Assembly: GCA_021845925.1 (NCBI GenBank)
Contig: JAJZUW010000006.1
Span: 124,001 to 188,000, forward strand
Length of the DNA stretch: 64,000 nucleotides
Reading direction: 5' to 3'
Origin: Pseudomonadota bacterium
Lineage (GTDB): Bacteria > Pseudomonadota > Gammaproteobacteria > Burkholderiales > Sulfuriferulaceae
Shown: piece by piece, positions 7,225 to 50,046 of the stretch
Numbering within the stretch: the stretch's first letter is position 1
Layout of the letters: each line of letters opens with the position of its first letter
Notes under the pieces: model-generated
Seen by the model: only the letters and a program-made list of their open reading frames with translations
Told to the model about the DNA's origin: nothing
The model's database searches: none
Translations under genes and position numbers: made by a program

Positions 7225-8337
7225 ATGGCCAAACGCGACTATTACGAAGTGCTGGGCGTCAATCGCGATGCCAGCGAAGACGATCTGAAAAAAGCTTATC
7301 GCCGTCTGGCGATGAAGCATCACCCGGACCGCAACCCGGATAATCCGAAGGCGGAAGAACTGTTCAAGGAAGCCAAGGAAGCCTACGAAACCTTGACCGA
7401 CCGTCAAAAACGGGCAGCCTATGACCAGTACGGACACGCAGGCGTGGACCAGTCTGCCGGCATGGGTGGCGGCAATCCGTTCGGCGATGCCTTTGGCGAT
7501 ATCTTCAGCGACATTTTCGGCGGTGGCGGCGGGCGCGGACGCAACGGGTCCTACCGCGGTGCCGACTTGCAATACAATCTGGAAATCACCCTTGAAGAAG
7601 CCGCTCGCGGCACCGAAACCCGCATCCGCATTCCGGCACAGGAAGAATGCGGCACCTGCCACGGCAGCGGCGCCAAACCCGGCACAGACCCGATCACCTG
7701 TCCCACCTGTCACGGACACGGCCAGGTGCGCATGCAGCAGGGATTTTTCTCGTTGCAGCAAACCTGCCCCAAGTGCCATGGCAGCGGCAAGGTCATCCCG
7801 AACCCATGTCCGGAATGCCACGGCGCAGGACGCGTCAAACGCAACAAGACACTGTCGGTGCGCATCCCTGCCGGCGTGGACAACGGCGACCGCATCCGCC
7901 TGTCCGGCGAAGGCGAACCCGGCCTCAACCACGGCCCGAGTGGCGACCTGTATGTCGTCATCCATCTGAAACCACATGCCGTGTTCCAGCGCGACCACAA
8001 CGACCTGCATTGTGAAATGCCAGTCAGCTTCACCGTGGCTGCCCTTGGCGGTGAAATCGAAATCCCGACCCTCGACGGACACGCCAAGATCAAGATCCCG
8101 GCAGAAACCCAGACCGGCAAGGTATTCCGCCTGCGCGGCAAAGGCATCCAGGGCGTGCGCAGCCAAGGCCCCGGCGACCTGCTCTGCCACGTCATGATCG
8201 AGACCCCGGTCAACCTGACCGAACGACAGAAAGAACTACTGCGCGAACTGGAAGCCATCAACCAGGCCGACGGCGAACGGCATAACCCGAAAGCCAAATC
8301 CTTCATGGAAAAGGTCAAGGCATTTTTTGCCGGCTGA
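7225..8337 (+). CDS. dnaJ: Chaperone DnaJ (Hsp40, type I)
   Basis: DnaJ delivers unfolded clients to DnaK and stimulates its ATPase. The 370-residue product has all type I domains in order. The J domain (1-70) has the HPD tripeptide at about 33-35. It is followed by a Gly/Phe-rich linker (76-115). Four CxxCxGxG zinc-binding repeats ([32 protein letters not shown]) lie at about 140-205, and two C-terminal substrate-binding domains end the protein. It is the last gene of the grpE-dnaK-dnaJ heat-shock operon and is followed by the 8381-9110 repeat region. Confidence 0.99.
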
Positions 8338-8380
8338 TCCGCCTGACAGCCCAAGCGACAGAAACGCAGTGGTTCCGGCC

Positions 8381-9110
8381 GGATCTGTGGATTCCGCGAC
8401 TACGCGCGGAATGACGCGATGTTCGTGGAATGACGGGGTGTTCGTGGAATGACGGGGTGTTCGTGGAATGACGGGGTGTTCGTGGAATGACGGGGTGTTC
8501 GTGGAATGACGGGATGTTCGCGGGATAACGCCGCAGCACCGTCATTCTGCGCGAAGCAAAGCGAAGTCGCAGAATCCATGCCTCACCAGCCAAGCCACTC
8601 CCGGATCTGTGGATTCCGCGACTACGCGCGGAATGACGCGATGTTCGCAGAATGACGCGATGTTCGTGGAATGACGGGGTGTTCGTGGAATGACGGGGTG
8701 TTCGTGGAATGACGGGGTGTTCGTGGAATGACGGGGTGTTCGTGGAATGACGGGATGTTCGCGGGATAACGCCGCAGCACCGTCATTCTGCGCGAAGCAA
8801 AGCGAAGTCGCAGAATCCATGCCTCACCAGCCAAGCCACTCCCGGATCTGTGGATTCCGCGACTACGCGCGGAATGACGGGATATTCGCGGAATGACGGG
8901 ATGTTCGCGGGATAACGCCGCAGCACCGTCATTCTGCGCGAAGCAAAGCGAAGTCGCAGAATCCATGCCTCACCAGCCAAGCCACTCCCGGATCTGTGGA
9001 TTCCGCGACTACGCGCGGAATGACGGGATATTCGCGGAATGACGGGATATTCGCGGAATGGCGCCGCAGCGAAGTCGCAGAATCCATGCCTCACCAGCCA
9101 AGCCACTCCC
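8381..9110 (+). repeat. Nested higher-order tandem repeat of dRS3-like palindromes and a 19-bp minisatellite
   Basis: The 806-bp interval between dnaJ and the DUF1439 gene (8338-9143) holds no credible gene and is almost entirely repetitive. Four long units begin with GGATCTGTGGATTCCGCG (GGATCTGTGGA in each) at 8381, 8603, 8844 and 8990 (lengths 222, 241, 146 and 121 bp); a remnant starts at 9111. Each unit opens with palindrome A (ATTCCGCG / CGCGGAAT arms, six-base loop, facing right). It continues with a variable number of GTTCGTGGAATGACGGGGT 19-mers: five in unit 1, five plus one variant in unit 2, and one or two variants in units 3 and 4. It closes with palindrome B (ATTCTGCG / CGCAGAAT arms, facing left), which is partly deleted in unit 4. 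The length differences of units 1-3 are whole numbers of 19-mers (19 and 95 bp), as expected from slippage. It sits between convergent genes. Confidence 0.9.
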
Positions 9111-9143
9111 GGATTTGTAGCCTTGGCAACCCTATCCGTCTGG

Positions 9144-9704
9144 TCAATTGTGTTTGACATGCACCACCACCCCGTCGCGAGTGATTTCGATGCGTTCGGG
9201 CACCACCTGAGTGCCGAAGATGCGCTGGTCGTCCTGGCTCAGACGGTACAGCACGGCGCCGTCGAGCTTTTCGGTCACGGCAAAGCCGGCAGCCTGACGC
9301 AGCAGGCGGGCGCCTGATGGCGACAGGCCGACGATGTCCGCCTGTTGCAATTCGGGTTGTTGCAGCACGATGGTCTTGTGGTCGCTGTCATACTGCAACT
9401 GTCCGCTGACGGTGAAATGACCGGTAATGGGATGATCGACACCAACCATGTTGATCAGCGCATCCAGTTGCAGGGCAAGGCGCTGGTTGACCGGATCCGA
9501 ACTGACCTGCGGGTGGGTGAGTGTCATGTCCACCAGCCCGAGATAAGATTTTTCGACCGGGAATTTGCGTTGCAGGGCTTGCTGCATGTCATCATCTGAA
9601 AACGAGATCGTACCCGGAACCAGCAAGCCCGCACAACCAGCCAGAAAGCCGAGTAACGCCAGCCAAACAACGTGACGGCGCAGGTATTGGGTGATGGCAT
9701 TCAT
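9144..9704 (-). CDS. DUF1439 (YceB-like) lipoprotein
   Basis: The 186-residue product starts with a basic/hydrophobic signal ending in a lipobox, LAGC, with Cys24 as the lipidated residue, so it is an outer-membrane or inner-membrane lipoprotein. The rest, with the FSDDDMQQALQRKFP start of the mature domain and alternating strands, fits the DUF1439 family (E. coli YceB), which resembles tubular lipid-binding domains. Function is not established. AAGGAG lies 11 bases before the ATG. It follows tatD by 72 bp in the same direction and ends close to the repeat region. Confidence 0.75.
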   Translation of the reverse strand: MNAITQYLRRHVVWLALLGFLAGCAGLLVPGTISFSDDDMQQALQRKFPVEKSYLGLVDMTLTHPQVSSDPVNQRLALQLDALINMVGVDHPITGHFTVSGQLQYDSDHKTIVLQQPELQQADIVGLSPSGARLLRQAAGFAVTEKLDGAVLYRLSQDDQRIFGTQVVPERIEITRDGVVVHVKHN

Positions 9705-9776: not shown

Positions 9777-10568
9777 TCAGGCAGCTTTTTCCCGGTCTGC
9801 TGGTATGGCGCCTGAAAACAGGCGGAAAAAACTGGCGCTGCTTGCCTCGCCAACTGCCTGCTGGCTGATGCCGCGCACGTCGGCAATCATGCTGGCCACG
9901 TACGGAACATAGGCAGGCTGGTTGCTCTTGCCGCGAAACGGTACCGGCGCCAGATAGGGCGAATCGGTTTCGATCAGGATACGGTCAAGCGGAATCTGGC
10001 GTGCCACCTGGCGCAAGGCTTCGGCATTCCGGAAAGTGACGATGCCAGAGAACGAAATATAAAATCCCATGGCAATGGCAGCGTCGGCCACCGCCTGACT
10101 TTCGGTGAAACAGTGCATGACGCCACCAATGCGCTCAGCACCCTCTTCCTGCATGATGCGCAGGGTGTCTTCGGCAGCGGAACGGGTATGGATGATGAGC
10201 GGCTTGCCGCTGGCAATGGCCGCGCGAATATGCACGCGGAAGCGTTCGCGCTGCCATTCCAGATCGCCGGTGAGCCGGAAGTAATCCAGCCCGGTTTCGC
10301 CGATGGCAACCACGCGCGGATGAGCGGCCAGCTGTACCAGCTGTTCAACGGATGGTTCTTCGACGTCTTCGTAGTCTGGATGCACGCCCACCGAAGCAAA
10401 AATGTTGGCGTGGCGCTCCGCCACAGCCAGCACGCGTGGGAAATCGGCCAGATTCACGCTCACGCACAGGGCGTGCGTCACACGGGCTTCTGCCATGGCT
10501 GCCAGCAATTCTGCTTCATGGCTGGCGAGATCGGGAAAATCGATGTGGCAGTGCGAATCAATGAACAT
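9777..10568 (-). CDS. tatD: TatD-family metal-dependent DNase
   Basis: TatD/YcfH-type TIM-barrel hydrolases are metal-dependent deoxyribonucleases. The 263-residue protein has the HxH metal site (SHCHID, His6 and His8), the bridging Glu in AIGETGLDYF near residue 93, later His ligands in IIHTRSA and MHCFTE, and the terminal Asp in ETDSPYLAP. It is the usual neighbour of holB and pilZ in beta- and gammaproteobacteria, and lies 34 bp downstream of the PilZ gene. The exact member (TatD versus YcfH) cannot be decided; position next to holB favours YcfH. Confidence 0.9.
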   Translation of the reverse strand: MFIDSHCHIDFPDLASHEAELLAAMAEARVTHALCVSVNLADFPRVLAVAERHANIFASVGVHPDYEDVEEPSVEQLVQLAAHPRVVAIGETGLDYFRLTGDLEWQRERFRVHIRAAIASGKPLIIHTRSAAEDTLRIMQEEGAERIGGVMHCFTESQAVADAAIAMGFYISFSGIVTFRNAEALRQVARQIPLDRILIETDSPYLAPVPFRGKSNQPAYVPYVASMIADVRGISQQAVGEASSASFFRLFSGAIPADREKAA

Positions 10569-26554: not shown

Positions 26555-27791
26555 AGCGCAATGCCTCCGCCGGCTGGGTTGCAGCTGCCCGCCAGCTTGG
26601 GTAAATGGTTGCCAGCCAGGACAGTACCAGCGAAATTGCAGCAATCACCCACACATCATGCGGATCGAGCTTGGAGGGCAACTCGCTGATCTGATACACA
26701 TCCGAAGACAGGAAATGCACACCAAATGCATGTTCGATGGCCGGCACCAGTGTGCTGACATTGAGCGCCAGCAAAACACCGCCCACCACGCCAAGTCCGG
26801 TGCCCACCACGCCGATGACCACTCCCTGCAGCATGAAAATCCGCATGATGCTGCCTGGCGATGCGCCAAGCGTGCGCAGAATTGCGATATCGGCCTGTTT
26901 GTCAGTCACCACCATCACCAGGGTCGACACAATGTTGAATGCTGCCACTGCCACAATCAAGGACAGAATGACAAACATCACGTGCTTTTCCATTTCGACT
27001 GCCTTGAAAAAATTGCTGTGCGACTGGGTCCAGTCGCGCAGATAGTAGCGACCGCCCAGACGCAAGGTCAGTGCATGGGCAATCTGCGGTGCCCGATAGA
27101 AATCATCCACCTTCAACCGCAACCCGGAGACAGTATCACCGGTACGGAACAGGCGCTGCGCATCCCCCAGCGACATAAACACCATGCCGGCATCGTACTC
27201 ATACATGCCGATGTGATAAATACCCACCACGCGCAACTGTTTGAGACGCGGAATCATGCCGGCTGGCGTGATCTGGCCTTCCGGAGTGATCAGCGTCAAT
27301 TTGTCGCCCAGCTGCGCGCCCAGACTTTGGGCCAGGGCATCGCCGATCACCACCCCCCACTGACCGTCGCGCAGATCGGTAAACCGGCCAGCCTTCATGT
27401 GGCGGCCAATGTCGGCCACCTGGTCTTCCAGTTCCGGCCGGACGCCGCGCACGCTGACACCAGATACCGACTGATCGAACGCCATCAACCCCTGTCCGCT
27501 GACATAAGGGGCACTGGCCAGCACATGCCGGTCACCTGCCACCTGAGCGGCAACACCTTGCCAGTCAGACAACGTCAGGTCAAAGCCACTGATTTCGATA
27601 TGCGCAGCCACGCCAAGAATGCGGTTGCGCAATTCATCCTGAAACCCGTTCATGACCGACAGCACCACAATCAGCGCCATCACGCCCAGCGTGATGCCGA
27701 GCATGGAAATCAGCGAAATGAATGAAATGAAGTGATTGCGCCGCTTGGCACGGGTATAGCGCAGCCCGACAAAAATTTCAAACCAGTTCAT
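26547..27791 (-). CDS. lolC: Lipoprotein-releasing ABC transporter permease LolC/E
   Basis: The 414-residue permease has the LolC/E/MacB layout: helix 1 at about 23-50 ([23 protein letters not shown]), a large periplasmic domain to about 265, then three helices near 275-300, 320-350 and 380-400. The N-terminal [20 protein letters not shown] is typical of LolC/LolE. Only one permease gene is present, so the complex is probably the single-permease (LolF-like homodimer) form found outside the enterobacteria, unless a second copy exists elsewhere. The UbiB-family gene ends four bases upstream of its start. Confidence 0.93.
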
Positions 27792-47557: not shown

Positions 47558-47810
47558 GGATTCTGCGACTCCGCTTCGCTTCGCGCAGAATGACGGGAGG
47601 TTGGATTGCCGAATGCGCAGAATGACGCCGAGATGGCGCAATCGCATCTGTCCGTCATTCCGCGCGTAGTCGCGGAATCCACAGATCCAACACCCCCTGC
47701 AATCGCCTTTGTCCGTCATTCCGCGCGTAGTCGCAGAATCCACAGATCCAACACCCCCTGCAGTCGCCTTTGTCCGTCATTCCGCGCATAGTCGCGGAAT
47801 CCACAGATCC
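47558..47810 (+). repeat. Palindrome pair with a 61-bp tandem repeat
   Basis: The 421-bp gap between htpG and mtaD (47479-47899) has no gene. Palindrome B (47558-47596, right-facing GGATTCTGCG ... AATGACGG) is followed by a degenerate spacer containing GCAGAATGACG. Three left-facing copies of palindrome A then start at 47654, 47715 and 47776, exactly 61 bp apart, each followed by CCACAGATCC. The first two share the AACACCCCCTGCA filler. A GCCACCATGGTGGC palindrome lies at 47490-47503, just after htpG. Confidence 0.85.
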
Positions 47811-49879: not shown

Positions 49880-50046
49880 GGATTCTGCGACTCCGCTACG
49901 CTTCGCGCAGAATGACGGATGGGGGCCCACGCAGAATGGCGGATGGGGGCCCACGCAGAATGGCGGATGGGGGGCCACGCAGAATGGCGGATGGGGGCAC
50001 GCGCAATCGTATTGTTCGTCATTCCGCGCGTAGTCGCGGAATCCAC
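49880..50046 (+). repeat. Palindrome pair enclosing a 24-bp tandem repeat
   Basis: Right-facing palindrome B (49880-49918) and left-facing palindrome A (starting near 50020) flank four copies of a 24-mer, GGATGGGGGCCCACGCAGAA + TGGC, starting at 49917, 49941, 49965 and 49989; the last is degenerate. The interval separates the convergent DedA and hslO genes and contains no gene. Confidence 0.85.

Follow-up and report, generated by a model that had tools for sequence, protein, structure and literature searches.

RAYT-linked REPINs are of the GTAG type, and the phage integrase that uses dRS3 elements is Piv/IS110-like. A further family, Ssn, is said to have been described in about 2025 and reportedly comprises GIY-YIG nucleases, from Neisseria and other bacteria, that act site-specifically on single strands and whose cognate sequences are present in many copies. 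Among described repeats, the closest to those studied here are the CGTC-tagged REPs of Di Nocera et al. 2013 (PMC3733652), which in the accessible text of that paper have a CGTC tag, a stem of 8 to 9 bp that starts from AT, and a CCA tail; their loops are 4 to 5 nt long in its Table 1, with exceptions listed in the paper, and large REP clusters are reported from Neisseriae and Wolbachia. The same account equates dRS3 with CGTC-1. In the passages that deal with their multiplication, CGTC REPs come without a dedicated transposase, and how they multiply is left open (PMC3733652).

The locus reported here is built from two palindromes, A and B. Starting at the tag and ending with the tail, palindrome A reads CGTC-ATTCCGCG-CGTAGT-CGCGGAAT-CCA, and palindrome B reads CGTC-ATTCTGCG-(16 nt)-CGCAGAAT-CCA. 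Judged by sequence, both have the anatomy of CGTC-tagged REPs, and their stems of 8 to 9 bp (ATTCCGCG and ATTCTGCG) start with A-T pairs, a feature that is largely built into the detector used for the counts below but is also present in the genome-wide matches to the A and B patterns. A search of the genome for the palindromes, which the earlier note on this DNA had proposed, found 157 A sites and 90 B sites in 2.34 Mb (up to 3 mismatches), against 0 for the reversed-pattern control of A and 0 for the control of B. A was found in none of 17 other genomes of the genus that were searched for it, and among 397 other genomes of a phylum sample one genome held one copy, at 3 mismatches. The A/B repeat is most likely a non-autonomous mobile element that has expanded in this species.

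Forty-five regions taken around clusters, and placed from the listed part of the A sites and from the 90 B sites, held 235 REPs by our detector, grouped into 48 clusters of which 34 had at least three REPs. The tag was CGTC in 194 REPs and TGTC in 34, counts that are not a free estimate since the detector accepts a short tag list only, and 188 of the 235 ended in a CCA tail. Loops measured 6 nt in 144 REPs, 16 nt in 89, 15 nt in 1, and 11 nt in 1, and the loop grammar (CGNAG)nT fitted 204 of the 235. Loops of 6 and 16 nt lie outside the 4 to 5 nt of the CGTC REP super-family. We therefore call A/B a variant outside the four CGTC REP families listed in the accessible text of PMC3733652, and a variant rather than an excluded form because that paper itself gives exceptions in loop length. 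The tail side of A is conserved over ~14 nt and the tag side hardly at all, and B has a C-rich stretch ahead of its tag.

Within the window, by which we mean the whole 64-kb stretch of DNA analyzed, the main array occupies positions 8381-9110. The earlier note had described it as four long units, in each of which palindrome A is followed by 19-mers in a run and then by palindrome B. The boundaries and lengths that it gave for these units proved exact (Table 1), and the composition held for three of them; in the alignment of units 3 and 4, the latter differs by four substitutions and a 25-bp deletion that takes out palindrome B's tag together with its 5' half, which leaves only three of the four units complete. 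The differences in copy number were borne out by end-to-end alignment: units 1 and 2 differ by a single 19-bp insertion and are otherwise identical, and a gap of 95 bp (5 x 19) and two substitutions separate unit 2 from unit 3. The alignments thereby also uphold the broader claim that both the inner and the outer repeat have been amplified, with copy number shifting inside near-identical units. The earlier note also predicted that the locus would vary between strains; the variation in copy number observed here, in one genome of the species, is between units of a single array. What had gone unnoticed is the loss of half of palindrome B from unit 4, the genome-wide occurrence of the palindromes, the construction of the 19-mer on half a palindrome, and the recurrence of the nesting at many loci. 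The inner MINISATELLITE, the 19-mer, contains A's head half (CGCGGAATGACG) and 7 nt more, and the run of 19-mers is not independent of A, as its first copy overlaps the 3' arm of A (CGCGGAATGACG).

Table 1. Repeat features and neighboring genes in the window
Feature	Position	Strand	Description
Outer unit 1	8381-8602		222 bp: REP A, 19-mers, REP B, tail-tail spacer
Outer unit 2	8603-8843		241 bp; one 19-mer longer than unit 1
Outer unit 3	8844-8989		146 bp; 95 bp (five 19-mers) below unit 2
Outer unit 4	8990-9110		121 bp; B cut short
REP A copy 1	8389-8416	-	CGTC tag, stem ATTCCGCG, loop CGTAGT
REP A copy 2	8611-8638	-
REP A copy 3	8852-8879	-
REP A copy 4	8998-9025	-
REP B copy 1	8540-8577	+	CGTC tag, stem ATTCTGCG, 16-nt loop
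REP B copy 2	8781-8818	+
REP B copy 3	8927-8964	+
REP B remnant of unit 4, 3' half only	9068-9085	+	From alignment of units 3 and 4
19-bp minisatellite, unit 1	8408-8520		5.9 copies, TRF
19-bp minisatellite, unit 2	8630-8761		6.9 copies, TRF
19-bp minisatellite, unit 3	8868-8910		2.3 copies, TRF
19-bp minisatellite, unit 4	9014-9060		2.5 copies, TRF
Tail arm, truncated, of an additional REP A at the array end	9109-9120		By comparison with tail-arm consensus
dnaJ, upstream convergent neighbor	7225-8337	+	Pfam DnaJ, DnaJ_C
DUF1439 protein gene, downstream convergent neighbor	9144-9704	-	Pfam PF07273
Second REP cluster of the window	about 47558-47810		B, then three tandem A; TRF
Third REP cluster of the window	about 49880-50044		B, 24-bp half-REP repeats, A; TRF

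TRF scores of up to 978 place the tandem structure far above chance, and all 8 TRF rows of the window fall in this locus or in the two further REP clusters. The gap between dnaJ and the DUF1439 gene is ~810 bp here versus ~58 to 202 bp in relatives, as measured in the 7 of 13 loci that show both genes. No Rfam family matched at gathering score anywhere in the 64-kb window. DNA like units 3 and 4 was found neither among 72,556 plasmid records nor among 50,697 phage records, and viral contigs yielded one stretch with a single palindrome. We also considered whether the repeat is coding, and rejected this: the open frames there cross the palindromes, and with a period of 19 bp each copy changes the frame, so these frames are spurious.

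A pattern scan of genome contigs recovered the same palindromes from MAGs labeled as several phyla, with at least 69 stretches from at least 18 genomes and, in these 18, which were picked by the scan itself, from 1 to 127 matches each (up to 3 mismatches). Their labels include Propionibacteriaceae, Helicobacteraceae, Desulfobulbus, and Zoogloeaceae. For the Propionibacteriaceae MAG, the spread of its 127 copies over many contigs argues against a binning error. Loops of the form (CGNAG)nT and CCA tails are common to most of the 18 genomes, the exceptions being Pseudomonadales MAGs with CTC or CCC tails and a lake alphaproteobacterium with other loop ends. Seven of the 18 carry sample codes that we take to be those of termites, and six come from elsewhere. 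The remaining five bear the codes Nt197 or Cu122, which in the accessible part of PMC7024585 denote the termites Neocapritermes taracua and Cubitermes ugandensis, so at least 5 of the 18 genomes are from termite guts. As a separate observation, tail-to-tail REPs at six of these loci have the spacer CCATGCRGCGTCTGG in common, in MAGs labeled Desulfobulbus, Azoarcus, Zoogloeaceae, and Proteobacteria.

In the genome under study, REPs that are neighbors within 600 bp lie head to head in 62 cases, tail to tail in 53, and head to tail in 72. Head-to-head neighbors combine A with B in 62 of 62 cases, in all 37 regions that have any, where the random expectation is 0.475 per region (p about 1e-12), and tail-to-tail neighbors do so in 52 of 53. 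The pattern is not the one given for CGTC REPs, in which head-to-head dimers predominate and clusters are rare.

TRF arrays, short or long, lie at the cluster in 41 of the 45 regions, and 114 TRF rows fall within 150 bp of clusters versus 11 elsewhere. In 30 of the 45 regions, CGTCATTC (6 or more of its 8 letters) is present in the strongest of the short arrays, whose period is 17 to 39 bp, and 22 to 28 bp in 24 of the 30. That all linkers are locus-specific would be too strong a statement, as the linkers of these 30 regions form only 17 families (75% identity), some of them common to several loci; not every array is therefore an independent birth. Two of the 30 regions, L127 and L145, may be one array. 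Half-REP minisatellites are not described in the accessible text of the literature searched.

These arrays are polar. Short arrays cover 64% of head-to-head spacer sequence versus 0% of tail-to-tail spacers, and among outer flanks they occur on 14 of the 39 that face the head but on 2 of the 57 that face the tail (Fisher p 4e-5); in head-to-tail spacers, where the side is ambiguous, they occur in 7 of 72. Orphan head halves follow the same distribution: head-to-head spacers hold 124 of them, outer head sides 44, tail-to-tail spacers none, outer tail sides 2, and head-to-tail spacers, which are again ambiguous, 26. Because a symmetric hairpin alone does not explain one-sided arrays, we infer that something probably reads the tag.

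The polarity bears on the reading in which REPs are passive and no dedicated enzyme is at work, so that arrays come about where hairpins provoke ordinary slippage during replication and unequal recombination. A symmetric stem should seed arrays on both sides, yet they lie mostly on the tag side, and within 400 bp of REPs there are 196 orphan head halves versus 34 tail halves. Plain slippage can nevertheless give rise to tandem arrays in the absence of a nuclease, and it would be in keeping with several facts. Hairpins stall polymerases, and the units of our array are near-identical and differ by whole repeats. Tandem REPIN clusters with their flanks are also on record in the accessible text of PMC3116915. 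Furthermore, the half-REP side bias is absent overall in the 18 other REP-bearing genomes, whose 69 loci have 32 halves on the head side and 30 on the tail side, although one of them, Propionibacteriaceae Nt197P3bin23, has 10 and 0. On balance, we regard slippage without a dedicated enzyme as doubtful.

It could also be argued that the array is a bidirectional transcription end or an mRNA-stabilizing structure between convergent genes. Seventeen of the 48 clusters lie between convergent genes, 16 between co-directional genes, and 4 between divergent genes (raw counts, taken without a background of gene-pair orientations), the rest being at contig edges (6) or spanned by a probably spurious frame (5), and outer unit 3 folds strongly as RNA into one long hairpin (z -3.68). 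However, positions 8250-9250 contain no site resembling an intrinsic terminator or a promoter, the array is absent from relatives, and the placement may simply mark where insertion does least harm. Such a role seems unlikely to us as the explanation of the array.

Spread of the REPs by another enzyme, be it a Y1 tyrosine transposase of the RAYT type or a recombinase resembling IS110/Piv, would have precedents in the links of GTAG REPs to RAYTs and of dRS3 to a phage integrase that are given in the accessible texts of PMC3733652 and PMC3898611, and a Y1 transposase is present in 6 of the 18 REP-bearing genomes. Yet the genome studied here, which is 99.94% complete, gave no match to PF01797 (Y1 transposase, RAYT) or to PF01548 (IS110), with positive controls for both, and the three richest of the other REP-bearing genomes are likewise without PF01797. 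We consider this explanation improbable. PF04986 (Y2 transposase) also gave 0 matches, but its control was silent too. With a CGTC tag and 0 matches to PF01797, A and B are not GTAG REPs or REPINs of the kind that goes with a RAYT.

Six contig ends lie inside such arrays, and in 8 of the 45 regions runs of 10 or 100 N (scaffold gaps or masked letters) interrupt the array, so array lengths and copy numbers in the draft are uncertain. That the nesting itself is an assembly artifact, as these interruptions might suggest, is nonetheless highly improbable, given that the units have their own substitutions and their own deletion, that the array at 8381-9110 is free of N, gaps, and contig ends within a 212-kb contig, and that nesting of this kind is seen at many loci, built there from other units. 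The contig ends in REP arrays form three pairs that hint at contig neighbors. Matching array sequence of 40 and 60 identical bases suggests that contig C2 may adjoin C11 and that C6 may adjoin C12, respectively; more weakly, C4 may adjoin C15, where the spacer resembles other loci.

A candidate for a dedicated enzyme comes from the genome itself. It contains two matches to PF01541 (GIY-YIG). One sits in a 613-codon frame, the size of UvrC; the other (contig C10, 27107-27331, E 5.9e-14) is a small stand-alone protein encoded inside a REP cluster. This protein keeps the residues that are invariant among 12 homologues, which include Y8, G16, Y19, G21, R29, H33, E66, K67, and N85. Its gene is flanked by a B at 27019-27058 and an A at 27479-27508, tags outward, and thus fills a tail-to-tail slot, which measures 420 bp there versus 28 bp at three other places in the same cluster. 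The cluster, in the region 26444-27728 of C10, has 12 REPs; a 133-aa frame extends from the gene into REP B. The tail-to-tail A/B dimer of ~94 bp could be the gene-deleted form of an A-gene-B element, to go by this one locus. From this genome alone the association of gene and REPs is weak, because one such gene was placed and REP clusters make up 0.85% of the genome, or 2.1% if flanks of 300 bp are counted in. Taken with the comparisons that follow, the small stand-alone GIY-YIG nuclease is the likely partner of the A/B REPs.

Homologues of the protein were found in 34 plasmid-collection records, mostly of rhizobia and sphingomonads but also of Azospirillum and Neisseria, and a second query returned 42 records that were largely the same; no relative was confirmed in viral contigs or in phages. 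We examined 20 homologue regions, 15 of them picked for genus spread and then 5 as a follow-up, which are not all independent because they include 3 from Shinella, 3 from Sphingobium, and 3 from Sinorhizobium (two on one replicon). A first detector, which demands a stem with an AT start, located a CGTC-type palindrome within 300 bp of the gene in 10 of the 15 regions, against an expectation of 0.68 derived from the remainder of those stretches; it scored the Sphingobium and Novosphingobium regions as negative. A second detector, designed after sight of those sequences, accepts any perfect 8-bp stem and uses all 256 tags as a control. By this detector, 17 of the 20 regions have a CGTC, TGTC, or CCTC palindrome at a distance of up to about 300 bp from the gene, the three without any being those of Planktothrix, Spirosoma, and Sphingomonas paeninsulae. 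The nearest palindromes bracket the gene tags-outward in 9 of the 20. Among the other eight palindrome-bearing regions, five have palindromes on both sides in other orientations, one of which (Shinella HZN7) turns tags-outward if one stem mismatch is permitted, and three have them on one side. When the 256 tags were ranked, CGTC came first (14 of 20 regions), ahead of TGGA (10) and of ATGG, CTGG, and GTCA (6 each), with a median of 0; TGGA and GTCA arise from the same palindromes when the reading begins at the tail or is offset by one position. In four Novosphingobium and Sphingobium loci, GIY-YIG genes are bracketed by CGTC or TGTC palindromes (at ~9935-9965 and 10293-10360) whose stems lack the AT start.

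On one S. meliloti replicon with two of these genes, the subtypes of nuclease and palindrome agree for both. The palindrome of the first gene is of the CCTC-ATTCCTGT type, as in R. tumorigenes and Sinorhizobium C101. The second encodes a protein 81% identical to that of Rhizobium CIAT894 and has the palindrome ATCCTCGG-GCTTGAC, which is also found in the Shinella and Neorhizobium members of the CIAT894 group, CIAT894 itself having ATCCCAGG. The match in the second gene was an expectation that held. A MAG labeled Alphaproteobacteria has a GIY-YIG homologue with a CGTC REP some 20 bp away; apart from the gene described above, this is the sole homologue in the 69 loci of the 18 genomes and 30 loci of our own genome. 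In an all-against-all comparison of the frames in these same loci, none of the 25 groups listed, which are unannotated, was a shared gene beside REPs in more than 4 genomes.

In sum, we think it probable that the locus is a target array of a REP-associated GIY-YIG nuclease, organized as a mosaic of paired A and B REPs and grown by tag-sided tandem duplication. This reading draws on the observed anatomy and dispersal of the palindromes, their A+B pairing, the polarity of the arrays, the position of the gene, and the repeated occurrence of CGTC palindromes near its homologues in other bacteria; the nuclease would cut the A/B palindromes, and the cutting would drive both their spread and the growth of arrays. 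The A/B repeat, having expanded in the species, would have landed between dnaJ and the DUF1439 gene. The nuclease would recognize the single-stranded hairpin and cut near the CGTC tag, and from the cut end, repair or re-priming could copy the tag-side half of the hairpin together with adjoining DNA over and over, yielding an inner minisatellite phased on the tag. Whole A-spacer-B units might then duplicate by unequal recombination or slippage.

More tentatively, the proposal can be widened to CGTC REPs as a class: a stand-alone GIY-YIG nuclease, with its own palindromes on either side of the gene and their tags outward, might be their dedicated enzyme, its cutting at the tag might both disperse REPs and pump up minisatellites, and one version may have moved between phyla, notably among termite-gut bacteria. 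The association of gene and palindromes names a concrete candidate enzyme for the multiplication of CGTC REPs, and the one-sided minisatellites would offer a possible genomic readout of nuclease action. If this is true, a single nuclease could have left its footprints at dozens of VNTR-like loci in genomes of this kind.

Set beside the systems described so far, A and B resemble the CGTC REPs of PMC3733652, as far as its accessible text describes them, in their unpaired CGTC or TGTC tag, 8-bp stem with an AT start, CCA tail, mostly intergenic placement, and inverted pairs, as well as in having no RAYT association (0 matches to PF01797 and PF01548 in the genome). They differ from these REPs in their loops (6 and 16 nt versus 4 to 5 nt), in the fixed partnership of A with B, in the frequency of clusters, in the half-REP minisatellites on the tag side, and in having a GIY-YIG gene as candidate partner, of which that text makes no mention. 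Like dRS3 and the neisserial intergenic mosaic elements, insofar as PMC3898611 sets them out, they are CGTC-type palindromes in long intergenic mosaic arrays; however, dRS3 is ATTCCC(N8)GGGAAT whereas A is ATTCCGCG-N6-CGCGGAAT, which sets A apart from both dRS3 and those elements, and dRS3 is tied in these accounts to a phage integrase of a Neisseria filamentous phage whereas our genome has no PF01548 match. With REPINs (Bertels and Rainey 2011, PMC3116915) they share inverted REP pairs that fold as one hairpin and are sometimes repeated in tandem with their flanks, but REPINs are RAYT-linked and A and B are not, and half-REP minisatellites do not figure in the accessible text of that study. 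The likeness to Ssn is that of a small GIY-YIG protein with a multi-copy candidate cognate sequence, and the nuclease gene on contig C10 sits between palindromes of its own genome; the apparent link of such a nuclease to CGTC REPs, to A/B pairs, and to tag-sided minisatellites is the one drawn here.
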